Source: Nitrosomonas sp.
GTDB taxonomy: Bacteria > Pseudomonadota > Gammaproteobacteria > Burkholderiales > Nitrosomonadaceae
Length of the DNA: 38,952 bases
NCBI GenBank assembly: GCA_020890945.1
Contig: JAJHPK010000054.1
Span: 1-38,952, forward strand
Direction: 5' to 3'
The notes below the pieces were generated by a model. That model did no database searches and had not been told where the DNA came from. It was given only the letters and a program-made list of their open reading frames with translations. Position numbers and translations under genes: made by a program. This document shows positions 2,097-22,967 of the stretch, in pieces; position 1 is the first letter of the stretch, and every line of letters starts with the position of its first letter.

Positions 2097-2142
2097 ATTA
2101 TTGAATACAAAGTACATCTTGTGAATGCGGCATTTTGCCGCA
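2097..2142 (-). promoter_or_regulatory. Promoter of PepSY gene with shared palindromic operator
   Basis: On the minus strand a perfect palindrome with 7-bp arms and a 3-bp centre (TGCGGCA-N3-TGCCGCA, 2126-2142) is followed directly by a -35-like TTCACA (2120-2125), exactly 17 bp, and AATAAT (2097-2102) as the -10. The palindrome centre lies near -44 of the predicted start. The same layout recurs at 4488-4533 and 22917-22967. The gap 2017-2349 holds no gene and nothing else I can name. Confidence 0.65.
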
Positions 2143-2349
2143 GGCAATGCAAGAATGACCGAATTAACAAAAGCCCTACCCCGGGCTGTTTATCGTGTCA
2201 TACATATCGCAACTACTGTTTCATCAGTATTGAAGGCGAACCGATCCCATCATTGTCAATGCTTTAACGGATAAGTTTGTTCTTTTTCTTCTTTAGTTAT
2301 AATCTTCCGCGCCATTGATATTGCTGATGTTCAATAGCGCTGTTAATTT

Positions 2350-4440
2350 TTAAAAACTCAACACGACACCACCATAAAATGATCTTCCTGCGGCTGGGGA
2401 ATGTAAGCTTTGCGCGCCATCCCACCAAACATACTCATAACGCGCATCGTTGATGTTTCTAATTTGAAATTCCACATTAATGCGTTTGGTTACTTGATAG
2501 GATAACCCTAAATTACCGACAATAAACCCACCAAAGCGACCAGCAGTGTTGGTGCGCTCGATAAAGTAATTATTTTGGTAATTTGCCCACAAGTTAAACA
2601 GCAAATCGGGTGTAATTTTGTAATCGATTCCACCGGATCCCATATGATTTGGAATGTGATCGATTTCTTTACCTTGCGTAATATCAAGCCCAGAACCTGC
2701 TTGCACAATTTTGGAATCTTGCCAGGTATAAGTTAACCACATAGTCAAAGGATCGATCGGCGTGATATTGACCTGAAAATCAACACCACGGCGCCGCGTT
2801 CGTCCTATGTTTTCCGCATCATTATTGGCACTATTAAGAATCCGCCTCGCTTCATTGGAAGCGGTTTGTTCCCAGGTTGCAATCCTTCCTTCAAACCAGG
2901 ATACGGGATTAAGTTTGATACCCGCTTCCCAGCCATGATTGAGCGAAGGACCAAGGTTGGCTATACGAGGTGGAATTAAATAGGAATCTGCACCAACGCC
3001 TACTTGGAACGTTCTTCCCCAGTTTCCATAAAAGCTGTAGCCCTCAATAGGCGTATACACCACACTGATTTTGGGTTGATGAATAAAATCGTAATCGTTA
3101 ATGGAGTATCTTTGACCATTCAAATTATTAGTCAAATGACCATCGATCGTATCGACCCGATAGGCAGGGACAATTTTGAGCGAATCAAAAGGCTTCAACA
3201 TCGTTTGTATGTATGCGCCAAAAATATTAAAGTCAAAGCGCTGATCGCGAGTTTGACTGGTGCGAACACGCTGATCGGTCAAGAAACGCTTACTTTTATT
3301 TTCTTGAAATTGAATATCGACACCGGTTTCTACCGCAAAATCTCGCAAAAAAGGAACGACAGGTCGATAGGTGAAAGTCGATAATAAACCGTATTGCTGC
3401 TCTTGCGTCACTCGATTTTGCTGCGACACATTCGCTGAGAATTTTACGAATCGCGAATCATCGTAGTCGTTGTAATAAGCTTTGGTAGACCAAGAGAGAT
3501 CGTGGCGTAAATCAATATCGATATGCGCGCTGTACTGATTCATGGTTCTTCGCCCACCATCTGTGCTATTGAACGCATTGGTGCTGAATGGACGGGTGCG
3601 GCTTTCTTCCAAGGTTAAATAACCAGGTTCTTGAGCGTGATTGGTGTAATGCCGTACGCTTGCGCCAACTTGAAAATTCGCATCATCCGGTGCATAAAAC
3701 CATTTTCCCGATACCGAAAATTTATTCATATCGGAATGAGCGCGGTATCCATCGGTTGTGCGATAACCAATGAAGTAGTTTTGCATGAAACCATTTTTTT
3801 CATAACCTGCGCCAGCTTGTATATCCGTCGTATTAAAACTGCCATGATTAACACGGCCTTTTGCATACGTGCCGCCCATCGTGGTAGTAATATTGGCATT
3901 ACCCGCGATGTTATGTAAGCCATAGCGCGGATCATTAGTACCTCGCACTGTTTCGATCGATTCAATGTTTAAAGGAAACAACGCATCGAGAAACGGCATA
4001 TTACCGTCATTGGTGTTGCTCGGAATACCATCGATAAGGAGTTTAACCGCGTTGATTTCACCTTCGCCATTAAATCCGCGAAAAGAAAACTTTCCGTTCG
4101 TATTACCTTGGTTGAAATTGGTCAATAATGCGCCTGGAATACGGTTAAACAATTCCCACACATAGTTGACGTTTTGGTTTTGGATGAGGCTTTTGCCAAC
4201 CACGTCAACAGACGTAAACACGTCCTTCGTTGACAGCCTTCCGGTTTTGACAGTCTTCACCTCCACTTCACCGAGCCGAAAAGTGGAATCTGATTCTTTT
4301 TTAGTTTTTTGAGTTTTCTTAACCGATTGTTCTTGATCGTTTTTGTCTGTCGCAATCGGCTGTGAACAAACAGTCTGTGAAAAAAATATACCCCCCAAAA
4401 TTAATCCAGAGATTAATTTTGATAACCGCTCATGTCTCAT
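2350..4440 (-). CDS. TonB-dependent outer-membrane receptor
   Basis: This 696-residue outer-membrane receptor starts with a signal peptide (residues about 1-27, ending TVCSQ), then a charged Lys/Gln/Thr-rich linker. The plug domain spans about residues 60-170 with the typical FSFRGFNG, LLIDGIP and IETVRGTNDPRYG segments. The rest is a 22-strand type beta-barrel, ending in the aromatic terminus FYGGVVLSF. It would import a siderophore, a metal complex or another scarce ligand using energy from TonB/ExbBD, which are not in the window. The substrate cannot be read from sequence. Only a PepSY protein accompanies it, with no FecI/FecR regulator pair. The start is the ATG at 4438-4440. Upstream lies the promoter/palindrome at 4488-4533, and just beyond that an IS scar. 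Confidence 0.92.
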   Translation of the reverse strand: MRHERLSKLISGLILGGIFFSQTVCSQPIATDKNDQEQSVKKTQKTKKESDSTFRLGEVEVKTVKTGRLSTKDVFTSVDVVGKSLIQNQNVNYVWELFNRIPGALLTNFNQGNTNGKFSFRGFNGEGEINAVKLLIDGIPSNTNDGNMPFLDALFPLNIESIETVRGTNDPRYGLHNIAGNANITTTMGGTYAKGRVNHGSFNTTDIQAGAGYEKNGFMQNYFIGYRTTDGYRAHSDMNKFSVSGKWFYAPDDANFQVGASVRHYTNHAQEPGYLTLEESRTRPFSTNAFNSTDGGRRTMNQYSAHIDIDLRHDLSWSTKAYYNDYDDSRFVKFSANVSQQNRVTQEQQYGLLSTFTYRPVVPFLRDFAVETGVDIQFQENKSKRFLTDQRVRTSQTRDQRFDFNIFGAYIQTMLKPFDSLKIVPAYRVDTIDGHLTNNLNGQRYSINDYDFIHQPKISVVYTPIEGYSFYGNWGRTFQVGVGADSYLIPPRIANLGPSLNHGWEAGIKLNPVSWFEGRIATWEQTASNEARRILNSANNDAENIGRTRRRGVDFQVNITPIDPLTMWLTYTWQDSKIVQAGSGLDITQGKEIDHIPNHMGSGGIDYKITPDLLFNLWANYQNNYFIERTNTAGRFGGFIVGNLGLSYQVTKRINVEFQIRNINDARYEYVWWDGAQSLHSPAAGRSFYGGVVLSF

Positions 4441-4487
4441 CGTTACTTGACTCCCGCCTGTCTATCTTGGTTTATTAATGGCGGGGA

Positions 4488-4533
4488 ATCATAACGACAA
4501 AGACGTAATCTGGGAATGCGACATATTGTCGCA
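4488..4533 (-). promoter_or_regulatory. Promoter of TonB receptor with shared palindromic operator
   Basis: On the minus strand a perfect palindrome (TGCGACA-N3-TGTCGCA, 4517-4533) is followed directly by TTCCCA as a weak -35 (4511-4516), 17 bp, and a good -10 TATGAT (4488-4493). The ATG lies about 48 bp further on. The layout matches the sites at 2097-2142 and 22917-22967. An operator touching a weak -35 suits either activation or repression. Confidence 0.65.
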
Positions 4534-4672
4534 GCACTCTATGCAATGATTATTTATTGGCTGTAGGCTAGCAGGCGCAATGAAAAGCCAAAAGATTGCG
4601 CGCCTCTTTAAAAAGAGACTTATAAAAATTCAAGCTAATAATGCAGCGCCGTTTTATCGCAAAATACGGGAA

Positions 4673-4717
4673 GAGTCTTTTGCAAAATCCTATTTTACAA
4701 AATTCCAGTTGAATAAA
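4673..4717. repeat. 45-bp repeat, copy A (IS end or MITE-like)
   Basis: The 45 bases starting GAGTCTTTTGCAAAA match 15779-15823 at about 40 of 45 positions. The GAG-N2-TTTGCAAAA start resembles the terminal repeat of IS5-group elements, so this is probably an abandoned end of such an element. A second TTTGCAAAACCT follows at about 4749. No intact transposase belongs to it. Confidence 0.55.
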
Positions 4718-4790
4718 AACAGTGGGTTAGGAATGCTAATATGCGCATTTGCAAAACCTCTGGAAATGATTGTTCATCAACTAGAGTAAG

Positions 4791-5259
4791 AATTTCACAA
4801 AATCCTTCATGGTGTGGTGGAATTAGATGAAAGCTACTTTGGTGGTATTCGTAAGGTCAAGCGTGGTCGCGGCGCTGCAGGTAAGTTTGCTGTGTTTGGC
4901 ATATTGAAGCGCGGTGGTAAGGTTTATACAAGTGTTGTTGGAGATACCAAGACAGAAACGTTTATGCCGCGCTCATTACTAGAAAGATAGCGCCTGACAG
5001 CATAGTTTATACAGACTGTTATCGCAGTTACAATGCGCTCGATGTGAATCATTTTTACCATGAACGGATCAATCATTCCACACAATTTGCTCAAGGTAAG
5101 AATCACATCAACGGCATTGAAAACTTTTGGAATCAGGCCAAACGCGTCTTAAGAAAATACAATGGTATTCCTAAAGGATCATTTCCATTGTTTCTCAAGG
5201 AATGTTAATTCAGATTCAATTATGGAACACCTAAACAACAGTTAAAAAGAAAGTTCTAA
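4791..5259 (+). mobile_element. Decayed IS1595/IS1016-type transposase
   Basis: Reading from about 4791 gives a C-terminal piece of an IS1595-family transposase: VVELDESYFGG (catalytic Asp/Glu region), KRGRGAAGKFAVFGILKRGG, then a frameshift near 4955-4985. In the next frame it continues KIAPDSIVYTDCYRSYNAL, INHSTQF and GKNHINGIENFWNQAKR, ending FPLFLKEC. A TAA at 5206-5208 interrupts it, after which FRFNYGTPKQQLK continues in frame to 5259. The N-terminal zinc-binding part is missing. There are therefore at least three lesions (5' truncation, frameshift, nonsense), so the element is dead. Its 3' end overlaps the end of the convergent arsC-like gene by a few bases, and it lies between arsC and the TonB receptor promoter. 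Terminal repeats were not located. Confidence 0.85.
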
Positions 5260-5606
5260 TTTCTATTCAGTAAACTGATAACAACCTCCGGTGGCCGACA
5301 CACTTTAGCCCGATCTCCACGAACTACGATCGGGCGTTGCATCAAATCTGGATTTTCAATCATGGCGTAAATCAATTCATTATCGGATGCATTAATCAGC
5401 CGACTTGCAAGCGGCTCGTCCTGACGCAAAACATCACGAGCAGATCCACCTAATTTCCGTATGATTTCTTTCAGCTCATCAACGGTCAAAGGGGTTTCGT
5501 AATAATTAATAGACTCAAACTCTTCACCACTTTCTGTCAAAATAGACAACGCAGATCTACATTTACTGCAAGTCGGTTTTTGGTAAATTTTTATTTTATC
5601 GTCCAT
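5256..5606 (-). CDS. arsC: ArsC-family reductase (arsenate reductase-like)
   Basis: This 116-residue cytosolic protein has the thioredoxin-like ArsC fold. The strand IKIYQKPTC is followed by C13-S-K-C16-R17. The motif GSARDVLRQDEPLASRLI covers the middle, and the family signature QRPIVVRGDRAKVCRPPEVV lies near residues 90-109. ArsC of the glutaredoxin type reduces arsenate to arsenite through the first cysteine, with three arginines holding the anion; candidates are visible here. The extra cysteine three residues later is more like the Spx/YffB branches of the family, so the true substrate is open. No arsR, arsB or acr3 gene is nearby, which weakens an arsenic-resistance role. The gene follows the IalB-like gene by 35 bp on the same strand and may share its transcript. 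Confidence 0.75.
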   Translation of the reverse strand: MDDKIKIYQKPTCSKCRSALSILTESGEEFESINYYETPLTVDELKEIIRKLGGSARDVLRQDEPLASRLINASDNELIYAMIENPDLMQRPIVVRGDRAKVCRPPEVVISLLNRN

Positions 5607-5641
5607 TTTTTATGACAAAACAACGCTATATTTCTAACAGC

Positions 5642-6166
5642 CTACTTTATTCCGCATTCTAACGAAATCGCTTTATAAGCCGCTGATGATCCGCTTAATC
5701 CAAATGTATCAACTGTATTGGTGCCACGAGAGGAAACACCTTTCACCACTAATGAGCTACCCCGCTTAATGGCATCCACGATCTTATCATCCGTAGTTTG
5801 ATCACGCGCCCAAGCCGAATCATCTTGTGTAAAAAGATTAAAATTTTGATTATTCACGGCAACCGAAGCTTCAGAACCTGCTTTGTAGGTATACCCTGAT
5901 ACATAACTAAATACATTTTTACTTTTCTCTGCAGGACGATGCGTAATCAATGCGAACACATCGCCTCTTTTTGAATAATTTCCAGAAGTTTTCTTGGGCT
6001 GGCTAACCATATAACAGACTTTGTTGTTATTCTCCATATAGGTATAAGCTGTCCAATCACCATGCTCACCTAGTACTTTAGGTTCCGTAGCATGTACACT
6101 ATTATTCCACATGAAAAGTAGAAAACTACTACAGAGTAGAAACTTTGTACGCTTTAATTTCATCAT
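5642..6166 (-). CDS. IalB-like exported protein
   Basis: This 174-residue protein has a signal peptide (MMKLKRTKFLLCSSFLLFMW…VHA, about 26 residues). The mature domain has the invasion-associated locus B pattern: GDWTAYTYMENNNKVCYMVS, RGDVFALITHRPAEKSKNV, FSYVSGYTYKAGS, and a late VKGVSSRGTNTVDTFGLSG followed by AISLEC. Two cysteines, one in VCYMV and one in the final SLECGIK, probably form a disulphide. The family is found in many proteobacteria. Despite its name it has no general proven link to invasion; the protein is taken to be periplasmic or outer-membrane associated. The gene precedes arsC on the same strand by 35 bp. Confidence 0.75.
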   Translation of the reverse strand: MMKLKRTKFLLCSSFLLFMWNNSVHATEPKVLGEHGDWTAYTYMENNNKVCYMVSQPKKTSGNYSKRGDVFALITHRPAEKSKNVFSYVSGYTYKAGSEASVAVNNQNFNLFTQDDSAWARDQTTDDKIVDAIKRGSSLVVKGVSSRGTNTVDTFGLSGSSAAYKAISLECGIK

Positions 6167-6266
6167 TCGAAGAAACCTTGAAAATTATCGAAAAATTCAG
6201 TCATATACTCAAAAACCATCAACATCTACAAGTTAGTATAGAAATAAATCTAGTCACCCAAGCTAC

Positions 6267-6524
6267 TTATTTACACCCTTCCATTTTGTAAATATAAAAT
6301 CCATTTTGGTTGATTTCATCAACCACATTGGGTGGTGCGCTTTGACTGTGACAAAAACTGCATTCTTTACTGGTAACGACAGCATCACCCTCACCAATCG
6401 TTGCAAGCCATTGTTTTGCATATTCTACGGCTTTTTTATCATCTTTTACCGACGTAAAAACATCAAAGTGCATGGTATGTCCATCCTTGGCTTTAACGTA
6501 AGTATCATATACATGAATTTGCAT
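6267..6524 (-). CDS. DUF2024 family protein
   Basis: This 85-residue cytosolic protein starts MQIHVYDTYVKAKDGHTMHF, followed by DVFTSVKDDKKAVEYAKQWL. It contains KECSFCHSQ and ends GFYIYKMEGCK. This is close to the whole length of DUF2024, a small family of unknown function. The CxxCH piece looks like a haem-attachment motif, but the protein has no signal peptide, so covalent haem is unlikely and metal binding is a more plausible role for the cysteines and histidine. A good AAGGAA ribosome site lies 6-7 nt before the ATG. It stands about 100 bp upstream of the IalB-like gene on the same strand, with no evident functional link. Confidence 0.85.
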   Translation of the reverse strand: MQIHVYDTYVKAKDGHTMHFDVFTSVKDDKKAVEYAKQWLATIGEGDAVVTSKECSFCHSQSAPPNVVDEINQNGFYIYKMEGCK

Positions 6525-7102
6525 TGAATTTCCTTTTTGACGAAATTGATTAATTTTAATATAGAAAATTTTATGGCTATTTCAATTCACTTCCTATTTC
6601 AATTTGAATTACTATTTTCTGAATTCAGAATTCTACATTTTTGCTCAGAAAAATGTACATCATTCATAAAATTTGGAGGTCCTAATAGTAATAGCTTAGC
6701 ATCTAAAAACACTAAATCAACAAAGTGTATATACTATATCAGATGGAATTTGTATCCACTATTTTTAGTGAATGAGTAGATTCTTCTTTAAAACTGAATT
6801 CATTGTATTTTGAGAAAAATAACAATATTCCTAAAAATCCCACTTCAACCTTACTGTAAAAACATAGTCGATTAGAATAAACGCAACATATTCAAAATGA
6901 ATATCACCATTGTCTCTGATAAGCAAATAAGTCTAGCTTTTAATGTCATCTTTTTTTTATGCTTTGCGTTATTGCTACGTAGCCGGTCATATCTTCATCA
7001 TTCGCCTTGAATATATGTCGTAAACTATGTCGAGTTTTCCTGTTTAGATAATTTTCAACCATTAACAAAAAACCATAACCAATAAATCCCTCGGAGGAAT
7101 AT
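6525..7102. other. AT-rich intergenic stretch with palindromes
   Basis: No gene is supported in this 578-bp gap between divergent genes. It holds a perfect 14-bp palindrome centred on GAATTC (6617-6630). A perfect 9-bp stem with a 6-nt loop follows immediately (TACATTTTT-N6-AAAAATGTA, 6634-6657), about 110 bp upstream of the DUF2024 start. A small CACTA/TAGTG stem lies further right, near 6756-6770. The rest should contain the two divergent promoters. Confidence 0.5.
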
Positions 7103-7720
7103 ATGATTAAAAAAATAATGAGAACTACCATTCTGATTTCCATTCTCACCATCTTTGTTTCAGCTTGTTCAACAACGCAAAAAATCACCCCTACTCTCAG
7201 AACTGCGACAGAACAGCTACTGCTTACTGAATCTGTTTTACGTAGTTTACCCAAAGACCGAGATATGCCTTTCCCGATTCCACGTGGCTCAAAAGTGAAA
7301 TTAGAGGTAAGCGGCGTAAGTCCTGATAAAGATCTAGTAAAATCAGTTGTTGCTGGATGGATGGGCATGCATGGCTATATTCCACAAGATGAAAATGCAA
7401 GTCATCGTATCAATATCGTCGTTAATTCACTCGGCACAGAATATGCCACAACTTTCTTTGGTATCCCACCGATTAATGCCTCTTTGATACCGATTGCCAC
7501 ACCTGAATTAGCCTTCTATAAATCAGAAAGCCAATTAGGTTATTCAAGATTCCATTTCGATATATTCGAAGTGCCTTCTGGAAAATTTCTGGCTTCCTCA
7601 TCTCCATTTCGTGCAGATGCTTTCTATAATATGTATACCGTATTATTCTTATTCAAGTTTAATAAATCTGACTTAGTTTCTCCTCCTGAAATCAAAACAT
7701 TCACACAATTAGTAAAATAA
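7103..7720 (+). CDS. Uncharacterised lipoprotein
   Basis: This 205-residue protein has a lipoprotein signal (IFVSAC-S, lipid cysteine at residue 22), so it should be anchored in the inner or outer membrane. A strong GGAGG precedes the ATG. The mature part has the segments FPIPRGSKVKLEVSGV, VVAGWMGMHGYIPQDENASH, RINIVVNSLGTEYATTFFGI, PPINASLIPIATPELAFYKS and FHFDIFEVPSGKFLASSSP. The alternation of short strands and a helix suggests a compact alpha/beta lipoprotein of a kind often annotated as a domain of unknown function in Gram-negatives. I cannot name the family with confidence. A short inverted repeat without a T-run lies at 7770-7786, downstream. It stands alone, divergent from the DUF2024 gene. 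Confidence 0.7.
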   Translation: MIKKIMRTTILISILTIFVSACSTTQKITPTLRTATEQLLLTESVLRSLPKDRDMPFPIPRGSKVKLEVSGVSPDKDLVKSVVAGWMGMHGYIPQDENASHRINIVVNSLGTEYATTFFGIPPINASLIPIATPELAFYKSESQLGYSRFHFDIFEVPSGKFLASSSPFRADAFYNMYTVLFLFKFNKSDLVSPPEIKTFTQLVK

Positions 7721-7882
7721 TTCTAGGTGGATTTAATCCAAGCTATTGGATTTAAATAAAACAACTTAAGATTCGCTCTGAATCTAAATGTAGATCTAGA
7801 AACAATGATAATTGTAAATACTAATAACTTGGATTATGCTATATCCTGTAATCTAATCGAAAAATAGGAGTTTAAATATTAC

Positions 7883-8086
7883 ATGAATAAATTTTTGTTA
7901 ATGTTGATGATTGCGTTAGTCGCATTGTCATTAGCAGCTTGTGAAGGAAAGAAAAGTTTGGATGGTCATCCGATGGACAAACCACCTCCTTCAGCTTATG
8001 CTCCAAGAGATTCTGAACCTCAGTTGGATGCACCAAAAGAAAACGCTGGGGCAGCGGGTGCAACTTCAGATGCTGCTAAGAAATAA
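7883..8086 (+). CDS. Small lipoprotein
   Basis: This 67-residue protein begins MNKFLLMLMIALVALSLAAC, with lipid cysteine at residue 20. The short tail is rich in Pro, Ala, Lys and Asp and has no predicted fold. AGGAG lies at 7866-7870, a rather long spacing from the ATG. Small lipoproteins of this kind are often outer-membrane stability factors or entericidin-like, but nothing in the sequence picks a role. A strong terminator follows at 8136-8170, supporting a short single-gene transcript. Confidence 0.65.
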   Translation: MNKFLLMLMIALVALSLAACEGKKSLDGHPMDKPPPSAYAPRDSEPQLDAPKENAGAAGATSDAAKK

Positions 8087-8135
8087 TGAGGACAGTTTTA
8101 CTGTAATTTGATTTAATTTGTATGTTAGTTGTACC

Positions 8136-8170
8136 AACCCCTAGCCAAAAACTAGGGGTTTTGTTTTATT
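8136..8170 (+). terminator. Rho-independent terminator, probably bidirectional
   Basis: A 9-bp perfect stem (AACCCCTAG … CTAGGGGTT) with a 6-nt loop is followed by TTTGTTTTATT. It lies between the small lipoprotein gene (plus) and the end of czcA (minus) and can serve both. Confidence 0.85.
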
Positions 8171-8182
8171 ACGATAAAGAAT

Positions 8183-11407
<3,225 letters not shown>

Positions 11408-12910
11408 TTAGTGATCATGGCTTGCTCCAGCTTTTCCTAATTCTGCTTTCAATGCAAAGCTATTACCGCTGGCGTAAACTTCTCCAGCCGTTAATCCACT
11501 CAACACTTCGACATTATCACCATCGCTGCGTCCCAATTCCAAAGGACGAACTTCAAAAAATTGATCATAGCGCCCAAAAACAACCGACCAATCGCGAAAT
11601 GTTTGTATCGCATTCATCGACACAGCAACCGGCACGGTTATTTCCTCAGCGATCAACTCGACATTGACAAACATACCGGGACGCCACTTGTTATCTGCAT
11701 TATCCAATTCAACCCGCGCCGTTGCGGTGCGGGTTTGTCCACCGATAAGCGTTGAAATATAGGTCACAGTGCCTTCACTTTCAACATTCGAAGCGGCTGC
11801 CCTGACTTTTGCTTTCTGCCCTACGCGAACCGCATTCAAATCTTTTGGATAGACCGTTACTGCAGTCCAAATCGTGGACACATCGGCTATGGTGTAAATT
11901 TCTCGGTCTTCTTTCAGCGATTCACCTCGTGCGATCGCTTTAGCGATAATAATGCCCGTGATCGGAGCGCGAATGATGAAATTCGGAAAATCGGCGGCTG
12001 AATGACTGGCTTCGGGTTTTACGCCTAATGCGCGTAACTTACTGGTCGCTTGTTCTACCGCTATCTGTGCTTCTTGCCACAACTCTTCAGCAGTTAAAAA
12101 ATCCTGCTTGGCAGAAATTTTTTCCTCCCACAATTTCTTTTCACGCTCGTAAGTCGTTCTTGCCAGCTTGAGTCGTTTATTAGCCACAAAATATTGGCTA
12201 CGCAAATCCGATAACGTCGGGCTTTCGATAATAGCCAATACATCGCCTTGCTTCACATGCTGACCATGATGTCCACGGACTTCTGTAACCAACCCTGCGA
12301 CACGAGGAACAACGCGAACGATATTATGTTCGTTAAAAACAATCTCTCCTGGCAATTTAAGCTTAGATCTGATGACAGCCGGTCCGGCAGAAAGCAAGTC
12401 GACACCGACGCTTTTAAGCATTTCATCCTGCATTTCTATTCGGCCTTCGACCTGACTGTAGCTCCAGCGCATCACTTTCTTATTGTGCTCTGCGGCTATC
12501 GCCACCTCAAAAGAATGAGGTTCTTTCACTACTTGATCGCCCAATAGATAGTCTGCTTCGGGTTTAAATTTGATTAATTGAGCGGGCGCTCCCAAACGTG
12601 ACAAAGTCACCGCAACAGACGCAGATATCGGCGGTATAGGCTTTCCTTTTTCGTACAAATAAATTCTAAATTCCGGCGCTACACCTTTCTCAAAAATAGT
12701 CACTTCCAGAGCGAAGTCACCTTCTTGGAAAAATTTTCCTCCTCGAGGGCCAGTGTCTTTCTGATCTGTATTCGAATCTTCAACAGCAGCACCATTTTCA
12801 GTTTCCTCAGAACTTCCCGTTGGTTTATCTAAAAGCAGAATCAGGCCTGCTAGAATAATTCCTACACCAATCACGATGATAATGGGTTTGAGTTTAGCTT
12901 GATTGATCAT
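11408..12910 (-). CDS. czcB: CzcB-type membrane-fusion (adaptor) protein
   Basis: This 500-residue periplasmic adaptor links the CzcA pump to the CzcC outer-membrane channel. An N-terminal anchor helix (about residues 8-26) is followed by an acidic linker and the CzcB-specific N-terminal domain, with GPRGGKFFQEGDFALEVTIF at about 54-73. Then come the barrel-sandwich/lipoyl piece (VRGHHGQHVKQGDVLAIIES), a helical hairpin, the second lipoyl half (IRAPITGIIIAKAIARGE) and beta-barrel domains. The C-terminus ends SHDH, and His pairs (GHHGQH) could bind metal. The length fits CzcB rather than the shorter AcrA type. czcC ends 18 bp before its start. Confidence 0.92.
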   Translation of the reverse strand: MINQAKLKPIIIVIGVGIILAGLILLLDKPTGSSEETENGAAVEDSNTDQKDTGPRGGKFFQEGDFALEVTIFEKGVAPEFRIYLYEKGKPIPPISASVAVTLSRLGAPAQLIKFKPEADYLLGDQVVKEPHSFEVAIAAEHNKKVMRWSYSQVEGRIEMQDEMLKSVGVDLLSAGPAVIRSKLKLPGEIVFNEHNIVRVVPRVAGLVTEVRGHHGQHVKQGDVLAIIESPTLSDLRSQYFVANKRLKLARTTYEREKKLWEEKISAKQDFLTAEELWQEAQIAVEQATSKLRALGVKPEASHSAADFPNFIIRAPITGIIIAKAIARGESLKEDREIYTIADVSTIWTAVTVYPKDLNAVRVGQKAKVRAAASNVESEGTVTYISTLIGGQTRTATARVELDNADNKWRPGMFVNVELIAEEITVPVAVSMNAIQTFRDWSVVFGRYDQFFEVRPLELGRSDGDNVEVLSGLTAGEVYASGNSFALKAELGKAGASHDH

Positions 12911-12928
12911 TGCATCCTCATGAGTTTT

Positions 12929-14383
12929 TTATTGTTTAGGGTGATAGACAGCATTCGGACTCGACTTAATGCTATCGATGGGCGCTGCAATTAAACGCTC
13001 AATATCATTGGCTAACCGTTGATAATTAGCCAGTGCGCGCACATATAGCACTTGATTCTGAAACAATACGCGTTGCGAATCGAGTAATTCCAGCAAACCA
13101 AACTTACCCAGCTCATACCCGCGACGCATCACGCTAAACGCATTTTTTGCTCCCGGTATAATTTCGTCACGCAGAATACTGATTTCATTCCAGGAGGCCA
13201 GCAGCATTTCGTAGGCTTGGGCTAATTCTGTTTTTAAGCGCAACTCAGTCGCGGCCTGTTCATCGACCGCTTTATCGATACGTTGATAGGCTTCTTTGAT
13301 GCTACCTTGGTTGCGATCAAACAGAGGAAGCGGAATCGCCACACTTGCTGTTGCGGTAGTGCCCCCTAATTGGGCATGATGCACCGCTCCCGCACTGACT
13401 GTTAAATTAGGTATTGCACGCGTTTGTTCGACTTTTAACAACGCTTTTCGATGTTCAACATTTTTCAGTGCGCGAATTGCTAGTGGATTCGCTAAAACAC
13501 GTTCTTCAAGCGCATGCAATTCAGGTGGCGTCACGACAGACTCTAGATTTCCCACCGCTTTGTTAAATTGAGGCGTTACGCTATTCCAAAGCAATGCCAA
13601 ACGCTTACGCGCGCCGATTAGGTCTCTCTGCGCTTGCTCTTGCTCGATCCGAGTAGTCGATAAACCTATTTTTACACGTGTTTCTTCAATCGGAGCCACC
13701 TTACCTCCTTGAACGCGTTCCGATACGGTGGTTACGACACTTTTGGCCACTCGCTGCGTTTCTTCGGCCAAGCGTAACCGCTCTTGGGCTGCCAGAACCT
13801 CGATAAACACACCGGCTACTCGAGCAATGATTTCGATCCGTTTTGCTTCGTAATCACGTCCAGCAAGTTCTTCACCTAATAAAGCCGCATTCGTTCGAGC
13901 AGCGCGCTTACCTCCCAACTCGATTAACTGATAAATTCGAATTGTGGTTAATTGCTGCACGACCTCCTGTGCAACACCTTCAGCAGAGTTAATATCGCCT
14001 GGAAGTTTTTGTATGTTTCCGGCATTCTCCACATTGGCGACTAATTCGGGGTTTTTAAGCAAGCCCGCTTGCAGCGTCGCCCCTTCCAGTGCACGCATTT
14101 CTTTGCCAAAAGCCGCCAATTCAGGATTTTGCAACAACGCCAAATTAATCGCATCGCGCAAAGTCAAGTCTCCCGCAGGAGCATTATTAATATTAGCACT
14201 TGAATGTTTGATCGCATCATCCGCATCAACGTTATTCTGCGGCAAAAATGTCAACGTATCGGCACTGCTAATTGCTGCAACAAAAAAATTGGTCAATAAA
14301 AGCGCTGCTGTTATAACAATTTTTTGTTGCAATAAAGACCGCTTACAAAGCGCTGAAAATGAATCGAGATCGCGCCATTTCAT
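12929..14383 (-). CDS. czcC: CzcC-type outer-membrane efflux channel (TolC-like)
   Basis: This 484-residue protein has an N-terminal signal segment (IVITAALLLTNFFVAAISSA, about residues 22-41) and two outer-membrane efflux repeats. The first includes LTLRDAINLALLQNPELAAF (about 75-94) and the coiled-coil region with ELGGKRAARTNAA. The second is in the C-terminal half, with SAGAVHHAQLGGTTATASVA, IPLPLFDRNQGSIKEA and YELGKFGLLELLDSQRVLF. Trimeric proteins of this family form the outer-membrane duct for RND pumps. A strong GGAGG lies 6-7 nt before the ATG. It is the first structural gene of the efflux operon, 131 bp after the CzcI-like gene. Confidence 0.92.
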   Translation of the reverse strand: MKWRDLDSFSALCKRSLLQQKIVITAALLLTNFFVAAISSADTLTFLPQNNVDADDAIKHSSANINNAPAGDLTLRDAINLALLQNPELAAFGKEMRALEGATLQAGLLKNPELVANVENAGNIQKLPGDINSAEGVAQEVVQQLTTIRIYQLIELGGKRAARTNAALLGEELAGRDYEAKRIEIIARVAGVFIEVLAAQERLRLAEETQRVAKSVVTTVSERVQGGKVAPIEETRVKIGLSTTRIEQEQAQRDLIGARKRLALLWNSVTPQFNKAVGNLESVVTPPELHALEERVLANPLAIRALKNVEHRKALLKVEQTRAIPNLTVSAGAVHHAQLGGTTATASVAIPLPLFDRNQGSIKEAYQRIDKAVDEQAATELRLKTELAQAYEMLLASWNEISILRDEIIPGAKNAFSVMRRGYELGKFGLLELLDSQRVLFQNQVLYVRALANYQRLANDIERLIAAPIDSIKSSPNAVYHPKQ

Positions 14384-14514
14384 GGAATCCTCCGCGCATT
14401 ACTAAATGCTGTATTTAAAACAATTCATTCTATTTGAGAAAAGCTACACTGACTTGACAGCAATACTCACGAACGAAAGCTCATCGTTATTGCCACTCAA
14501 CAATCTAACCGATA

Positions 14515-14889: not shown

Positions 14890-14926
14890 TTTAACAGTGG
14901 AATCGATTTCCTTATTTCTTATAAAG

Positions 14927-14942
14927 TCTATGATTTCATAGA
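14927..14942. promoter_or_regulatory. Palindrome upstream of the czc operon, candidate operator
   Basis: A perfect 16-bp palindrome TCTATGA-N2-TCATAGA sits 38-53 bp before the CzcI-like ATG. On the minus strand a -10-like TTTATAAG follows it directly (about 14918-14925). A dyad just upstream of the -10 would suit a metal-sensing regulator, for example of the MerR type, but no convincing -35 was identified and no regulator gene is in the window. A half-site resembling the TGCGACA operator occurs at 14961-14967, with wrong spacing for a full site. Confidence 0.5.
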
Positions 14943-15037
14943 ATCAGCTAAGTTGCAATTGTGTCGCAAAAAAGAAAAAATATTCAGTGGCCAGTTGTAA
15001 TCGCACAACATCATGCTTGGTACATAATCGGTATTCA

Positions 15038-15616: not shown

Positions 15617-15778
15617 GAATATATTGTCGTAGAGTTGCTAACGAGCACTTGTTTTTAAATGGTTAAAAAAATTAACCCTCTTTTTTGCTAGCAAGTGCAA
15701 AAATATAACATGCGCGCCTTATTTCTGTACTATTTGTGGTAACCCTGCATGTAATGAATAAAGAATTAGAATCACATC
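15552..15778. repeat. Left copy of the maf/yceD intergenic region (direct repeat)
   Basis: 15552-15640 aligns without gaps to 23118-23206 at an offset of 7566. The middle is diverged, and 15701-15722 is nearly identical to 23260-23281 at an offset of 7559. The copy keeps the maf start (15614-15616) but the position equivalent to the yceD ATG is ATT (15721-15723). A few yceD codons are still traceable (SV-x-FV). Similarity fades between 15748 and 15778, where the 45-bp IS-like repeat begins. Confidence 0.85.
15645..15698. repeat. Nested inverted repeats inside the left copy
   Basis: GCACTTG (15645-15651) pairs with CAAGTGC (15692-15698). Inside lies GGTTAA-N5-TTAACC (15661-15677). The right copy lacks both, so they arose or were lost after the duplication. 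The inner dyad could act as a protein site; the outer could extrude as a cruciform. Confidence 0.5.
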
Positions 15779-15823
15779 GAGACCTTTGCAAAACCCTATT
15801 TTACAAAATTTCAGTTCAATAAA
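15779..15823. repeat. 45-bp repeat, copy B (IS end or MITE-like)
   Basis: Starts GAGACCTTTGCAAAACCC and matches 4673-4717 at about 40 of 45 positions. It sits exactly where similarity of the left flank to the right flank runs out, so it marks the left boundary of foreign material. No transposase for it is present here. Confidence 0.55.
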
Positions 15824-15824
15824 G

Positions 15825-15965
15825 TTACTCAAGCAAATCGACGCCTATCAAGCCGAACTCAAGACTGTGCAAAAATTAATCGAGGGAAAAATCCGGGTGA
15901 ATGAGAACAAATTTTATATCAAGCGCGCGATCCGGCAAACTTGGATCGGCAAGGAGTCTCAATAA
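15825..15965 (+). pseudogene. C-terminal gene fragment of unknown origin
   Basis: The open frame reads LLKQIDAYQAELKTVQKLIE, continues with EGKIRVNENKFYIKRAIRQT, and ends WIGKESQ plus stop. It has no start codon or ribosome site and follows the IS-like repeat directly. The charged helical pattern looks like the genuine end of a gene cut by an element. I do not recognise the family. A terminator hairpin overlaps the stop. Confidence 0.4.
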
Positions 15966-15992
15966 AAACCCCGCAACCAAGGCGAGGTTTTT
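15964..15992 (-). terminator. Terminator after the FG-GAP gene, bidirectional
   Basis: An 11-bp stem with one mismatch (AAAAACCCCGC … GCGAGGTTTTT) and a 7-nt loop ends in T-runs on both strands. It lies 23 bp beyond the end of the minus-strand FG-GAP gene and just after the plus-strand fragment at 15825-15965. Confidence 0.75.
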
Positions 15993-16015
15993 ACTGAAAA
16001 CTCAACGAACTAACT

Positions 16016-18241: not shown

Positions 18242-18367
18242 GATTTCATTCTCCTTTTAGTGATATTAAATTCGCATCCATTATTAACTGATGCGTGATG
18301 CGCTGAAGATGCTTTCTCTCCCAGCTTTTTATTCCTACACTTTGCTTCTATTACCGCAGCAATCGCG

Positions 18368-18589
18368 TCAATAACACCCGCAACCGCCGCCCTGCCCTGC
18401 ATTGCCGGATGTTGCCGCTTCCCGGCTACCGTAACCATGTCCCCGGAAACTGCTTTGCATCTCATTGGCATCGATCGACATGTGCGGCTTGGCCAAATTC
18501 CCGCGTTCCCACGGCTGCACGGCACATGCGCTCAAGCAAGCCATGATCAGCAACACCCCAAACGCTATCTTTCTTTTTTGTTTGTTCAT
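18368..18589 (-). CDS. DUF4266 lipoprotein
   Basis: This 73-residue lipoprotein is read from the ATG at 18587-18589, chosen because GAGGAG lies 6 nt upstream; a longer reading to 18652 has no ribosome site and would run into the gene before it. Signal MNKQKRKIAFGVLLIMACLS ends at lipid Cys22 (LSAC). The mature part is the DUF4266 pattern: QPWERGNLAKPHM, a middle with SSFRGHGYGSREA, and a Gly-rich end GGGCGCY. DUF4266 and DUF3570 genes are usually found side by side, often with a thioredoxin-like gene and an ApbE-type flavin transferase; that pairing is from memory of family context. Function is unknown. The terminal CxC suggests metal or thiol chemistry (inference). It follows the DUF3570 gene by 52 bp. 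Confidence 0.85.
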   Translation of the reverse strand: MNKQKRKIAFGVLLIMACLSACAVQPWERGNLAKPHMSIDANEMQSSFRGHGYGSREAATSGNAGQGGGCGCY

Positions 18590-18641
18590 ATACATCTCCT
18601 CATACGAACGGCTACAACACCTATCCCATGTTCTACGCGGG

Positions 18642-21464
18642 TCAAAATCCATATTGCCAAGTCACTCGTAGTGCGCCATCGCGATCCAATTGGTAACCGT
18701 TATAATCGGTATGCACCGGCTGCAACCATTCGAACCGAGCACTATGACCCGCAAAGCTACCGCCGGGTACGTGCACATTGACACCCAACCCTACGTCAAC
18801 GAATCGCCCACCATAATTTGCGCCAAAATCGAACGGTCCGTAATGTTGCATAGGCCCTTCATCCGCCAAAATGATTTTTGGCGGCCCATCGGTGACAACT
18901 TTTCCTTCACTGGTATACAACCCACGAGCGGTGAATGACATCCAGTTGGTCCAACGCAAACCACCCCAGGCACTGGTATGAAAGACATCGCCGAAGGAAT
19001 ATCCCGAATCGTTGCGTTTTTCCAGCCGCACCGTACCGCCCGCTTGCACACCCCAAAACAACTTATCTACGCCGCCGCTATAGGTCAGCGTGGGTTTGAA
19101 ATCCCAAGTACCGCTACCGGTTTGCATGCCAAAATTGATGACTTTATTCGCGGATTTATTGACTTCTTTCGGTGAATGAATATTCGCATCACCAGTCGGT
19201 GCGGTCGCGCCGATGCTTAAGGTCAGTTGGTGCTGACGGTCGTGCCAGAGTTTGAACAAGGTATACATGCCCAAATCGCCGATACCGCCCGTCTCGTGAC
19301 GGCGCGCGGCGGCTAACGCTGAACTGCTGTGGGAAGCATGACCGCCCGTCAACTTCACATTGGCATTCGATTCCATCGCCATGTTCATGTCCATCCATTG
19401 CGGCATCAGCATCAGCGTTGCCCAACGCGTCGGAGCGAACATCACTTCCAGCATGTGCATATTGGTGGTCATGGTACTTGGCCAGGCTGCGCATTCCAGA
19501 TCGCCACAAGCATTGCGATTGACTTCGTCGATACTGACGCGTTGCGTGCCCGACAGCATGCTGCCATTTTGCGACGCGAACAGATACCGATAACCGAGCA
19601 TGAATTGCCCGGCCTGCGGTAACGCATGGTCAAACATGATACCGGCCGGTGCGTTAAAAAATATTGGTGCATGCGCAGCACTATGACCAGCCTGCCCGGC
19701 GCCATATCCTGACGCATTGAAGTTTCGCGTGGCATTAGTGATACCCAACGCGCTCGGATTGATTTTTAACGCCGCATTAGCGGTCCAGAAATTAAAGTCA
19801 GCAAACGATTGCTCACTACCGCCGCCGAGTTTCAATCCGCCTTGATGAGTATAGTATTCAAAACCGGTTTCTAGGGTCACCCCTCGCACGAATTCCTTGG
19901 TAACGGTGACGCCAGCACTCAATGTGCCGAAGCCCGATAGCCGATGGTCGCTCGAATAATGCTCCGGCAACACATTGAAGCGATTTAAATCATGCGCGAT
20001 CGGTCTACCGATACTCGTTTTAACCGTACCCTGAAGCAAAAATGCATGATAAAAATCCGCGCTAGACTGTGTGTAGTAACGCACCCGCGGTGTCACCATC
20101 CAATCATTACCAATTGGCTGTAGCCACTGCGCTTCCATGGTATGCGCATGAATATCCCAATCGTCTTGGAAATAGCGATAATCGAGATGGAGCGCCGAAT
20201 TGAACGGCGCAATATAGTGTCGGTAGCTGGCGGTACCGACAAACTGGCGACGTTCATTGGGACGCTGCTCTAATATGGATTGCGTCGTAGCGGCGATACG
20301 ATTCGCATCCAATTGCGCCGGTGTGGCGCTAAAACCGACCACGGTCACCGCTTTATACGGATTCGCTAGATAACCGCTACTGTCGGTATAGCCAACGCCA
20401 AAATTAACAAAAGCATTGCGCGTCAGAATCTGTGTTAACCCCAGTTGCAACCCCCAGTCACTGCGGGTGGCTTGGGTTCTAAATTCACTGTCTTTTGCAG
20501 GCCTAAAACCTAGTTGTCGACTAACAGTAAAAGGCACGCTCAAAAACCCCAATGCTGTAGGATCAAAAGTTGCATCGGTTTCGCTATGTGTATAGCTACC
20601 ACTGAAGTTGAGCGTCGTTCTTTTCTGGTTAAAATCCAGCCGCCCTGCCACACTACCAAAGCGCGAATGGTAATCGTGCTCTTCCGAAACCCCACCGCCC
20701 AATGTCAGCGCCGCTTCGTTCCATTCGTAACTGAGCTTGATGTCGCCTTGTTTGCGCGTTTCCGGGGAAGCGGAGGACATGGTATGTGCGAGAGTATTTA
20801 CTTGACGGGTAACGTTATTGACATTTTTGTTATAGAAATTAAATTGCTGGTCAAAAAAATAAGGAATACCTGCACTTTCGCTAGTATTATCGGGACTTAA
20901 ATAAGGCGATGCGCCAGAAATACCCCCGCCATTATTCAGTGATACGATCGGTGCCGTTGCGATCGGCGTAGCGCCTGACCAGGTATCTTGGGTGTAGTCG
21001 AGAATCAAGCGAATCCGATCTTTGAAAGTGAATCGTCCCCGCATGCGTAGATTGTCGACTTCGATCGGTCGCAATTTATCGCCAAAAAATTGACGTTGAA
21101 CATTCCCCGAAGTATCGACACTATGCAGGGTACGCGGTCCTTCCTGGTAGCGGCCGTACTGGAAATCGACGCCATCTTTATCTGCCGCCGATGCAACCGA
21201 TACCGCTAACCCGGGCAACGCCAATGCGGCGAGCGTCAAAGTCGCCAAAGAGGGATAGGGCGACGCTAACGGCAACTGCACATGAGACTGAGTCAATGCG
21301 CGGTCTGATTCATTCGGATTCGTATCGGAAGAAGAAGGATTTGCAGCGGAAAATGCGTGCTTCAGCAACCTTGGCTGCATTGACGAAAGTTTCAAACAAC
21401 TTACATTTTTCTGGAAATTTTGTTTAAAACCTTGCCTGATGTTTATTTTTTTATGATTAGCCAC
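18642..21464 (-). CDS. DUF3570 outer-membrane protein fused to a second transporter-like barrel
   Basis: This 940-residue protein starts at a GTG (21462-21464) with AAAGAG close upstream. An unusually long N-terminal extension (about 65 residues) comes before the signal-like hydrophobic stretch ATLTLAALALPGLAVSVASA, so an internal start such as Met29 is possible. Residues about 95-600 follow DUF3570: YGRYQEGPRTLHSVDTSGNV, DRIRLILDYTQDTWSGATP, a loop of Gly/Asn, and many amphipathic strands (ALHLDYRYFQDDWDIHAHTM). From about 605 a second barrel-like unit begins, PAGIMFDHALPQAGQFMLGY, with a Met/His-rich stretch (MTTNMHMLEVMF, MPQWMDMNMAME, GGHASHSSS) and repeated strands ending VTWQYGF. The Met/His clusters hint at copper or similar soft metals; this is inference. 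The DUF4266 gene follows directly. Confidence 0.75.
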   Translation of the reverse strand: MANHKKINIRQGFKQNFQKNVSCLKLSSMQPRLLKHAFSAANPSSSDTNPNESDRALTQSHVQLPLASPYPSLATLTLAALALPGLAVSVASAADKDGVDFQYGRYQEGPRTLHSVDTSGNVQRQFFGDKLRPIEVDNLRMRGRFTFKDRIRLILDYTQDTWSGATPIATAPIVSLNNGGGISGASPYLSPDNTSESAGIPYFFDQQFNFYNKNVNNVTRQVNTLAHTMSSASPETRKQGDIKLSYEWNEAALTLGGGVSEEHDYHSRFGSVAGRLDFNQKRTTLNFSGSYTHSETDATFDPTALGFLSVPFTVSRQLGFRPAKDSEFRTQATRSDWGLQLGLTQILTRNAFVNFGVGYTDSSGYLANPYKAVTVVGFSATPAQLDANRIAATTQSILEQRPNERRQFVGTASYRHYIAPFNSALHLDYRYFQDDWDIHAHTMEAQWLQPIGNDWMVTPRVRYYTQSSADFYHAFLLQGTVKTSIGRPIAHDLNRFNVLPEHYSSDHRLSGFGTLSAGVTVTKEFVRGVTLETGFEYYTHQGGLKLGGGSEQSFADFNFWTANAALKINPSALGITNATRNFNASGYGAGQAGHSAAHAPIFFNAPAGIMFDHALPQAGQFMLGYRYLFASQNGSMLSGTQRVSIDEVNRNACGDLECAAWPSTMTTNMHMLEVMFAPTRWATLMLMPQWMDMNMAMESNANVKLTGGHASHSSSALAAARRHETGGIGDLGMYTLFKLWHDRQHQLTLSIGATAPTGDANIHSPKEVNKSANKVINFGMQTGSGTWDFKPTLTYSGGVDKLFWGVQAGGTVRLEKRNDSGYSFGDVFHTSAWGGLRWTNWMSFTARGLYTSEGKVVTDGPPKIILADEGPMQHYGPFDFGANYGGRFVDVGLGVNVHVPGGSFAGHSARFEWLQPVHTDYNGYQLDRDGALRVTWQYGF

Positions 21465-21719
21465 ACTCTTTGTTGTTCAAAATAGAAAAATCGGATGGAA
21501 AAATCAATGCCTAAAACGTCTCAGCCAACAACGCTGGGCTGAATAGGAGGTAAGACAGCTGCTTACGAAAAACAGTGGGTAAGCTAATTCAAAATAATAA
21601 ACAGCACACACCAAACTGCGGCGTGCACCGTTTTCTCTGTTAAACGCAATACGTTTACTATTCATCAAGGCAATCGTTGATATTTACCGCTACCGCTATG
21701 GATTGACCAAATGCAACGA

Positions 21720-22250
21720 TTATTGATTCTGAATGTAAGTCAACACACCCGGGGTGGGATGAAAGCTTCCACTACCCGGATTGGAATACAAACAGTGGTA
21801 TTCGAGCTGATATTTCTCTATTGGTGAACCGGTTTTCGAAACATAGATCTTATAGACTCGCGTATCTCCTGCGGTGGTTGCAACCGTGGAAAAAGGACTC
21901 GCTTTACCAGGTGCATCGCCATCACCAACCCCTGAATTTGAATTGGGATCGGTTTGTAACGACCCTGTCAATAGCGGTGACACCCGTTCCACTTTGACAT
22001 TAACAAAGGGAGTCGCTACCGGCAATATATCTTTGACCCGCGCCTGGAAAGAGGCCAAGTTATATGTGATACCATCGTTAGGATTGATCCAAGTAGCGGC
22101 GCAACTGTACTTTAGAATATCTGTCGCCGTGGAAGTACTTCCCAATGAACCACTGTGCGTCCAGTGCGAGAATGCTGGCGCGCTTACCAGCAGCGCACCG
22201 AACAAAATCACGGCGTTCGTGTTGCGTAATAAATATCGTTTGAACATCAT
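21720..22250 (-). CDS. Exported protein of unknown function
   Basis: This 176-residue protein has a signal peptide (about residues 1-28, LLVSAPAFS-HWTHSG). The mature part contains GSLGSTSTATDILKYSCAAT, VNVKVERVSPLLTG, an Asp/Gly/Asn-rich loop, TRVYKIYVSKTG and YQLEYHCLYSNPGSGSFHP. It looks like an all-beta domain with two cysteines (SCA and HCLY) that could form a disulphide. I do not recognise a family. It lies 39 bp after the preceding exported-protein gene on the same strand, so the two are very probably co-transcribed. A 255-bp gap with a TCAGCC/GGCTGA hairpin (21521-21542) separates it from the DUF3570 gene. Confidence 0.7.
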   Translation of the reverse strand: MMFKRYLLRNTNAVILFGALLVSAPAFSHWTHSGSLGSTSTATDILKYSCAATWINPNDGITYNLASFQARVKDILPVATPFVNVKVERVSPLLTGSLQTDPNSNSGVGDGDAPGKASPFSTVATTAGDTRVYKIYVSKTGSPIEKYQLEYHCLYSNPGSGSFHPTPGVLTYIQNQ

Positions 22251-22289
22251 ACTTTTCCTTTTTAGGCGTAACTACACCGGAATGATTGA

Positions 22290-22799
22290 TTAGTTCGGAA
22301 CATAGCGTTTAATGGCTGGGCCTGGGAATACGACTGGGTCTTCCACGCAATCAAATTTTTCTGTCGGATGCTGACTACCCGCTCCACAAACGAATTTAAC
22401 GTTGTCGATGACGCGCCCGGCGATTGTGCCGTTCAACACGAAACCATAAGCACCATTTTGACTCGGCGTGATTTGCTTGGAGCCAAAGTTCTCAATGGTA
22501 TTGAGCACGCCTAAATGCTTTTTAGCGCTTACTGTTGCGTTATACGCTTCAGCGTTGAGTTTTAGCACGGTGACTTTGATGTTAATGTCTTCAGCCGCAA
22601 CGGGAGCGCCACCGCAATCTTCAATATTCAGCACGGTAGCGTTATCAGCATCTTCCAACGCAGGCTCGGTCAACCAGCCCACTTCTACGCTACAGTCTCC
22701 ACCAATAACCCGTGGCTCATGGGCAAAAGCAGCACTGGGACCAAATAATCCAAGGCTGATGACGCTGAATAAGGTATTGCGAATCAGGGTATTTCTCAT
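22290..22799 (-). CDS. Exported beta-sandwich protein, first gene of the island
   Basis: This 169-residue protein has a signal peptide ending GPSAAFA, then a mature start HEPRVIGGDCSVEVGWLTEP. The pattern VEVGWLTEPALEDADNATVL resembles exported beta-sandwich proteins seen near copper genes in other bacteria (xVGWxxEPAxxxxPNxV), but I could not confirm a family. Four cysteines (GDCS, EDCGG, FVCGAG, FDCVED) could form two disulphides. A TTGGAGAA ribosome site lies about 6 nt before the ATG. It is the first gene of the island in transcription order and is headed by the shared palindrome promoter at 22917-22967. The next exported-protein gene follows by 39 bp. Confidence 0.7.
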   Translation of the reverse strand: MRNTLIRNTLFSVISLGLFGPSAAFAHEPRVIGGDCSVEVGWLTEPALEDADNATVLNIEDCGGAPVAAEDINIKVTVLKLNAEAYNATVSAKKHLGVLNTIENFGSKQITPSQNGAYGFVLNGTIAGRVIDNVKFVCGAGSQHPTEKFDCVEDPVVFPGPAIKRYVPN

Positions 22800-22916
22800 G
22801 ACGTTTCTCCAAAATTTTTTATTAATTGAATGAACTCATCCGGTTCGTAAAGCAGTGATATGCTTGAACGGTGAGTCTAAGTTCAGGTTGCCGAAACCGA
22901 CTGCCTGCTAAAAAAC

Positions 22917-22967
22917 AGTATAGGAAGAAAAAATTTAGATTGGAATGTGACAAATTGTCGCATTCCA
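22917..22967 (-). promoter_or_regulatory. Island promoter with shared palindromic operator
   Basis: A long dyad with 12-bp arms and one mismatch spans 22941-22967 (TGGAATGTGACA-N3- and its complement). It contains the 17-bp core of the sites at 2126-2142 and 4517-4533. On the minus strand the core is followed directly by TTCCAA as a poor -35 (22940-22945), 17 bp, and TATACT as the -10 (22917-22922). The gap 22800-23279 holds no complete gene: besides this promoter it carries a hairpin, a maf remnant and the yceD promoter. Confidence 0.65.

Follow-up and report, generated by a model that had tools for sequence, protein, structure and literature searches.

We analyzed a 38,952-nucleotide stretch of DNA from a Nitrosomonas species (assembly GCA_020890945.1, contig JAJHPK010000054.1, positions 1 to 38,952 of the forward strand), which is called the window throughout. 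Three of its promoters share a 17-bp dyad, TGYGRCA-N3-TGYCRCA, that abuts the -35 hexamer at a fixed distance from the -10 hexamer. These promoters most likely belong to a real regulon whose regulator is of the RegA type rather than a relative of CRP/FNR or CusR. Specifically, the dyad regulator is most likely a RegB/RegA (PrrBA, RoxSR, ActSR) pair. That RegA reads the dyad is in our judgment highly probable, and the complete statement, that a RegB/RegA-type system reads the dyad and that RegA acts there mainly as an activator, is likely.

The three promoters, with boxes that are putative and were read from the sequence, are as follows. Positions are those of the whole window, and all three promoters and their genes are on the minus strand.

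2126..2142, minus strand: RegA-type box (17-bp dyad) of the PepSY_TM promoter
2097..2125, minus strand: PepSY_TM promoter, with -35 TTCACA (2120-2125), 17-bp spacer and -10 AATAAT (2097-2102)
4517..4533, minus strand: RegA-type box of the TonB receptor promoter
4488..4516, minus strand: TonB receptor promoter, with -35 TTCCCA (4511-4516), 17-bp spacer and -10 TATGAT (4488-4493)
22946..22962, minus strand: RegA-type box of the island promoter
22917..22945, minus strand: island promoter, with -35 TTCCAA (22940-22945), 17-bp spacer and -10 TATACT (22917-22922)

At each place, the dyad is followed by a TTC hexamer, a 17-bp spacer and a TATAAT-like hexamer. An earlier note on this DNA had described these promoters, and its places, hexamers and spacers are confirmed; its third site was given as 22917-22967, of which the dyad and promoter are borne out, and 22963-22967 lie outside the dyad. 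The note had also ascribed all three promoters to one regulator, which is supported.

The genome-wide scan that the note suggested revealed a dyad that is rare and bound to promoters. In the genome that carries the window (2,684,521 bases in 106 contigs), we found 16 exact dyads in 2.68 Mb and no exact match to the reversed pattern; with one mismatch allowed, the numbers were 19 and 3. A near-match with one mismatch at C6:16935 has the same layout and was counted as the 17th site, and the other matches with one mismatch (in C31 and C44), which have GC-containing centres, were left out. The gene or hairpin that follows was used to orient the resulting 17 sites. A TATAAT-like hexamer (at least 4 of 6 positions) lies exactly 23 bases past the dyad in 12 of them, against a background of 8.6% at a random offset (binomial p 7e-10, uncorrected for the 120 offsets viewed). 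In four further sites, the -10 hexamer is found at offset 21 or 22. The C6 site has one at offset 23 only in the opposite reading direction: GSDH (L016) was considered as its target, but the -10 hexamer is absent that way, and the opposite way fits GATACA (offset 23, 4 of 6 positions), so this target is unsettled.

Two sites lie in duplicated promoters. L022:5898-6097 (G000:C24), ahead of a chromate-transporter gene, is a copy of the receptor promoter at 4438-4639 of the window (203 bases), and L019:6828-7079 (G000:C15), without an intact FecI gene, is a copy of the FecI promoter at L017:5017-5264 (254 bases). When these two are removed, the hexamer at offset 23 is present in 10 of 15 sites. 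Two weaker dyads, G000:C42:12012-12057 and G000:C90:1969-2014 (both minus strand), have two mismatches and a -10 hexamer at the right distance, and are possible further members.

Directly past the dyad on the promoter side, the first base is T in all 17 sites and the second is T in 16, and these positions are symmetric with the other flank in only 6 and 3 of the 17. Because the TT stands on the promoter side only and is rarely symmetric, it reads as the start of a -35 hexamer and not as an extension of the palindrome. On the same counts, we rejected the idea that TTC is just the outermost portion of an extended palindrome, GGAATG...CATTCC, as seen at the third site. The dyad centre lies 32 bases ahead of the first base of the -10 hexamer, or at about -44, in agreement with the position near -44 proposed earlier.

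Relatives exhibit the same geometry. From 52 dyads, six with TT on both sides and two with TT on neither were left out, and 43 of the 44 that could be oriented, by the adjacent TT only, have a -10 hexamer at offset 23; part of this set was gathered by DNA similarity to one boxed promoter. The unbiased part comes from four other whole Nitrosomonas genomes that were searched for the dyad only. It comprises 38 dyads, six of which have TT on both sides or on neither and were not scored; the hexamer is at offset 23 on the TT side in 31 of the remaining 32, and on the other side in 4 of 32. In G014:C1, dyads are clustered, with seven within about 6 kb at 2059896-2065813 (L253) and three within 2.3 kb at 2193751-2196062 (L254).

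One dyad of the home genome (C62:10795, locus L025) sits 89 bp ahead of an operon that encodes a histidine kinase together with a response regulator whose helix-turn-helix (HTH) is of the Fis type. This candidate lies elsewhere in the genome, consistent with the note's view that the regulator is not encoded in the window.

L025:6090-7358 and 7316-7915: candidate regB and regA (HisKA, HATPase_c, Response_reg, HTH_8)

By far the best NCBIfam models are ActS/PrrB/RegB (NF033792) for the kinase and ActR/PrrA/RegA (NF033791) for the response regulator, despite scores under the models' cut-offs. By comparison, the heavy-metal response regulator model TIGR01387 gives 50.8 bits (cut-off 279.2), which is in effect a match to the receiver only. 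The HTH aligns with that of PrrA (1umq) at 8.2e-12, with the stretch LNMHRRTLQR identical. The kinase translation carries GGSTNPF, fitting the quinone-binding heptapeptide GGxxNPF described for RegB (PMC8191878). Read by eye, a cysteine in IVHCKQTL follows the H-box HELGTPLST and might correspond to the conserved redox cysteine of R. capsulatus RegB, Cys-265. The closest relatives of the response regulator are 84-87% identical and come from contigs of Nitrosomonas or proteobacterial bins, which places the window in a Nitrosomonas species.

The association between dyad and response regulator extends across genomes. We gathered 80 named response regulator loci and counted the 78 with at least 1,450 bp upstream. 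Of these, 66 carry a dyad (26 exact, the others with a single mismatch) at a distance of 1.25-1.8 kb ahead of the response regulator gene, compared with 3 matches in 594,846 other positions; this interval is where regB begins in the home genome. The reversed motif is absent (0 matches) from the same intervals. The two arms of the dyad co-vary: Nitrosospira-type loci have TGCGGCA/TGCCGCA, and many Nitrosomonas loci have TGAGACA or TGCGACA with TGTCGCA. Outside the genus, a dyad is found 1.15-1.8 kb upstream of the response regulator gene in 12 of 28 genomes (0.013 expected), the 28 being those with dyads among the matches listed, out of 61 genomes of the order that carry the response regulator. 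Finally, among 150 genomes, the dyad is present in 50 of 66 with the response regulator (E<=1e-25) and in 11 of 84 without it (Fisher 3e-15, a value that is indicative only because the genomes share ancestry). Corresponding numbers for the reversed motif are 25 of 66 and 29 of 84 (p 0.73). At least two dyad copies occur in 35 genomes with the response regulator and in one without it.

The dyad also corresponds to published RegA motifs. At each of the 17 sites, the 15-bp core matches 13-15 of 15 positions of the R. capsulatus RegA motif SSGNVRDNHYSNCSS, in register, and 13-15 of 15 positions of the B. japonicum RegR box GNGRCRTTNNGNCGC, both as quoted in PMC5506826; shuffled sites average 9.6 and 7.9, respectively. 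A matrix built from the 17 sites scores 29 RegA 15-mers from chromatin immunoprecipitation (ChIP) at 15.5 standard deviations over letter shuffles. These 15-mers were taken from a table that numbers 33 peaks (PMC5359404), and they had been preselected by motif analysis in that work, such that the score demonstrates the same motif and not binding.

Computation shows the box and the constancy of its geometry, as well as its linkage to regBA and its fit to the published RegA motif; binding, a dimer, activation rather than repression, and a redox signal are inferred. In this scheme, the membrane histidine kinase RegB, which carries a quinone-binding heptapeptide, would transfer phosphate to RegA, which consists of a receiver and a Fis-type HTH. 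A RegA dimer would then bind the dyad near -44, flush against a poor -35 hexamer (TT and four variable bases), and would help RNA polymerase to start in the manner of a class II activator. The three window promoters would be three of about 17 RegA promoters, with another serving regBA itself. An activator that contacts RNA polymerase is suggested because the phasing of the -10 hexamer is rigid and the -35 hexamer is poor.

Several observations weigh against this assignment. Both proteins fall short of the cut-offs of their best models (283.3 bits versus 350 for the kinase, 198.1 versus 250 for the response regulator). No box precedes regB in 12 of the 78 relatives, including the N. eutropha Nm24 locus, and in the survey of 150 genomes, 16 of 66 with the response regulator lack the dyad and 11 of 84 without it have one. 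The Rhodobacter 15-mers score lower than every site of the home genome (best 18.4 and mean 0.1, versus 20.2-25.0); the Nitrosomonas boxes are far more regular than the Rhodobacter sites. Furthermore, the regBA promoter deviates from the other boxed promoters, in that its dyad is followed by TA instead of TT and, at offset 21, by a conserved TAATGT, and feedback may run differently there for this reason.

Among alternative explanations, the one we take most seriously, although we consider it unlikely, is that RegA reads the dyad and represses, blocking RNA polymerase at some or all of the promoters. The dyad touches the -35 hexamer, where a repressor could sit too, and the variant layout at regBA is compatible with negative feedback. 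However, a repressor requires neither a -10 hexamer at one exact distance, as observed for 31 of 32 dyads in four genomes, nor a poor -35 hexamer. It is quite improbable that another regulator binds the dyad and controls regBA, with RegA as a target and not the reader. Such a regulator would equally account for all the linkage evidence, and the genomes that have a dyad and no response regulator are in its favor. On the other side, the box is in register with the published RegA motif and the HTH is of the RegA family, and multiple dyads are almost confined to genomes with the response regulator.

The earlier note had suggested a class II activator resembling CRP/FNR or a copper regulator of the CusR/CopR type, prompted by the position near -44 and the GACA...TGTC core, and the CusA-like RND efflux operon in the window points the same way. 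Class-II-like activation is the natural reading of the geometry. CRP/FNR as the regulator is not supported, since the evidence leads to a Fis-HTH response regulator, the only regulator tied to the dyad across genomes, although no search for CRP/FNR or other co-occurring regulators was made. For CusR/CopR, the linked response regulator scores 198 bits with the RegA model and 50.8 bits with TIGR01387, and no dyad precedes the RND genes. We give this pair of candidates a negligible chance. Equally negligible is the chance that the boxes reflect coincidence or a dispersed repeat. Two of the 17 sites do copy other boxed promoters, but the other 15 have unrelated flanks, and the controls with reversed patterns and other offsets, as well as the matching substitutions by which the two arms differ between Nitrosomonas and Nitrosospira, are difficult to reconcile with it.

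Returning to RegA as the predicted reader, the boxed genes of the window and their neighbors are as follows.

766..2016, minus strand: PepSY_TM protein, 416 amino acids (Pfam PF03929, 2.9e-59), 110 bp downstream of its box
2350..4440, minus strand: TonB-dependent receptor, 696 amino acids (Pfam PF00593 and PF07715)
22290..22799, minus strand: first island gene, exported-looking protein of 169 amino acids without Pfam or NCBIfam match
21720..22250, minus strand: second island gene, exported-looking protein of 176 amino acids without Pfam or NCBIfam match
18642..21464, minus strand: DUF3570 protein, 940 amino acids (Pfam PF12094, 2.1e-112), on the same strand beyond the two island genes

The window additionally contains, at 8183-14383 on the minus strand, the RND efflux operon, which encodes OEP, CusB/HlyD-like and AcrB-family (CusA-like) proteins and has no dyad upstream.

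Besides the PepSY_TM, receptor and island genes, boxes in the home genome precede regBA and two FecI genes, both of which have genes for FecR and a TonB receptor behind them. Also boxed are genes for a 927-amino acid protein with seven CxxCH motifs, two loci with CCP_MauG proteins, and genes for a weakly thioredoxin-like protein, a BNR-repeat protein and a 252-amino acid exported-looking protein. In the four other Nitrosomonas genomes, we took the longest open reading frame (ORF) starting within 600 bp of a dyad as the boxed gene. This yielded PepSY_TM (59% identical), regB (76%), TonB receptors, TonB and a FecI-type sigma factor, as well as weak BNR proteins and members of the family of the 252-amino acid protein. 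Two assignments, a MauG protein and a CopD-like protein, are uncertain because of a distance of more than 500 bp; several boxed ORFs have no recognizable family, and three dyads have no ORF. Members of the exported-looking family are 250-280 amino acids long, start with AHTRL or SHTRL after an apparent signal peptide and have no Pfam match; three of the five Nitrosomonas genomes contain boxed members (L027:4295-5884, L253, L266, L267). Several small targets have a histidine right past the apparent signal peptide (AHTRL, AHISY, FSHWTH, FAHEPR). That they bind copper is a guess from features of CopC and YcnI. Metal acquisition and redox proteins form the common theme of the boxed genes, similar to the situation in Methylomonas. 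We dropped a reading of the regulon as dedicated to copper, since iron and redox functions occur among the targets alongside copper functions.

Most of the checks that the note had named as able to refute it came out in its favor: the dyad is rare and tied to promoters, and it recurs ahead of the one receptor orthologue and of some PepSY orthologues. Of 60 other Nitrosomonas genomes, one matches the window receptor at E<=1e-100 (44% identity) and none matches the first island gene at E<=1e-15; the receptor and island genes are largely lineage-specific. The sole receptor orthologue found (L198) has an exact dyad 60 bp ahead of an in-frame ATG, a position determined by eye, with TA after it and only 2 of 6 positions of a -10 hexamer at offset 23. 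PepSY has matches at E<=1e-60 in 22 of 85 genomes. Among 14 orthologues with at least 53% identity and 400 bp of upstream sequence (the truncated L293 and L297 are not counted), three (L284, L286, L288) have a box 104-115 bp ahead of the start and 11 do not. The L286 gene has an in-frame stop, and at L289 a box stands farther off, at about 480 bp from the start. Some unboxed PepSY orthologues that lie behind another ORF on the same strand may sit inside operons.

Two sites of the home genome have a terminator-like hairpin and no suitable ORF downstream, and are candidate small RNA (sRNA) genes.

L021:5853-6017 (G000:C17), minus strand: sRNA-like gene with RegA-type box, CATAAT and terminator hairpin
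L028:5881-6017 (G000:C76), minus strand: sibling sRNA-like gene with RegA-type box, CATAAT and terminator hairpin

In the five stretches used to build a covariance model, the T-run of the hairpin ends about 90-125 bases past the -10 hexamer. A search with this model, using filters that lose weak matches, gave eight matches, two per genome in 4 of 85 Nitrosomonas genomes, and an exact dyad with CATAAT 23 bases past it is present at all eight. Five of the eight built the model, and the remaining three, which are the second copies of the other three genomes, are the independent finds. Twelve of the 13 hairpin pairs are kept in all eight matches and one in seven; four pairs are changed on both sides, a count made without a shuffle control. 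Rfam at a relaxed threshold found no family at the two places in L021 and L028, and a search of the literature on Nitrosomonas small RNAs found nothing related. Elsewhere in the second locus, L028:9903-9983 (minus strand) matches the Rfam traJ-II RNA (59.6 bits, gathering score 40). Stretches resembling CCCTCCCTC in the candidate sRNAs could pair with Shine-Dalgarno sequences, and the RegA system seems also to drive this pair of small RNAs.

Taken together, these data lead us to a broader reading, offered tentatively and as something short of an expectation. RegA of ammonia oxidizers would be a strictly addressed class-II-like activator whose single rigid dyad at -44 directly adjoins a weak -35 hexamer. 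RegA might thereby let the redox state of the quinone pool set metal acquisition (TonB receptors, TonB, FecI/FecR, PepSY, a CopD-like protein), di-haem MauG-type cytochromes, exported proteins with histidine at the presumed mature N-terminus, and a pair of sibling sRNAs whose CCCTCC stretches might cover Shine-Dalgarno sequences. Accessory islands might join by gaining a ready-made promoter module.

The regulator family and its motif are known; the exceptionally strict box and promoter geometry, the metal-and-redox targets and the linked sRNA-like genes set this case apart. Sites of RegA-family regulators have been hard to define, as they are degenerate and differ in spacing; for two organisms, bound regions gave no strong motif (PMC4263372, PMC5506826). 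The Nitrosomonas site appears regular enough for a regulon, with fixed promoter geometry, to be read from sequence. These boxes therefore offer a clean system for how RegA activates transcription, and bacteria that carry out the first step of nitrification gain a candidate global redox regulator with testable metal-acquisition targets. Among the matches listed by full-text searches of open-licence PMC, we noticed no account of a RegA regulon in Nitrosomonas.

The Nitrosomonas system resembles R. capsulatus RegB/RegA and R. sphaeroides PrrB/PrrA in operon type, protein families, HTH and a motif in register. In Rhodobacter, however, the motif is degenerate and spacer length varies, whereas in Nitrosomonas the arms, the 3-bp AT-rich centre and the promoter distance are near-invariant; ChIP-seq of PrrA yielded no strong consensus (PMC4263372). 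The RegR box of Bradyrhizobium japonicum RegSR fits the Nitrosomonas cores, but RegR half-sites are spaced differently and conserved imperfectly (PMC4064962). Acidithiobacillus ferrooxidans is also a chemolithotroph, and its RegA bound upstream of energy-metabolism genes; binding was mostly upstream of the -35 region, however, and no binding motif could be derived (PMC5506826). A precedent for the candidate sRNAs is PcrZ of R. sphaeroides, which is PrrA dependent, with a PrrA site in its promoter (PMC8139620); the Nitrosomonas sRNA-like genes differ in being two siblings per genome with CCCTCC-type stretches. In Methylomonas sp. DH-1, RegA is linked to iron uptake: expression of feo, of the tonB operon and of a TonB receptor gene fell to 3-23% of the wild-type level when regA was deleted, yet ChIP placed RegA only at feo and control of TonB looked indirect (PMC13274454). 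In Nitrosomonas, by contrast, the box lies directly ahead of TonB receptor, TonB and FecI genes.

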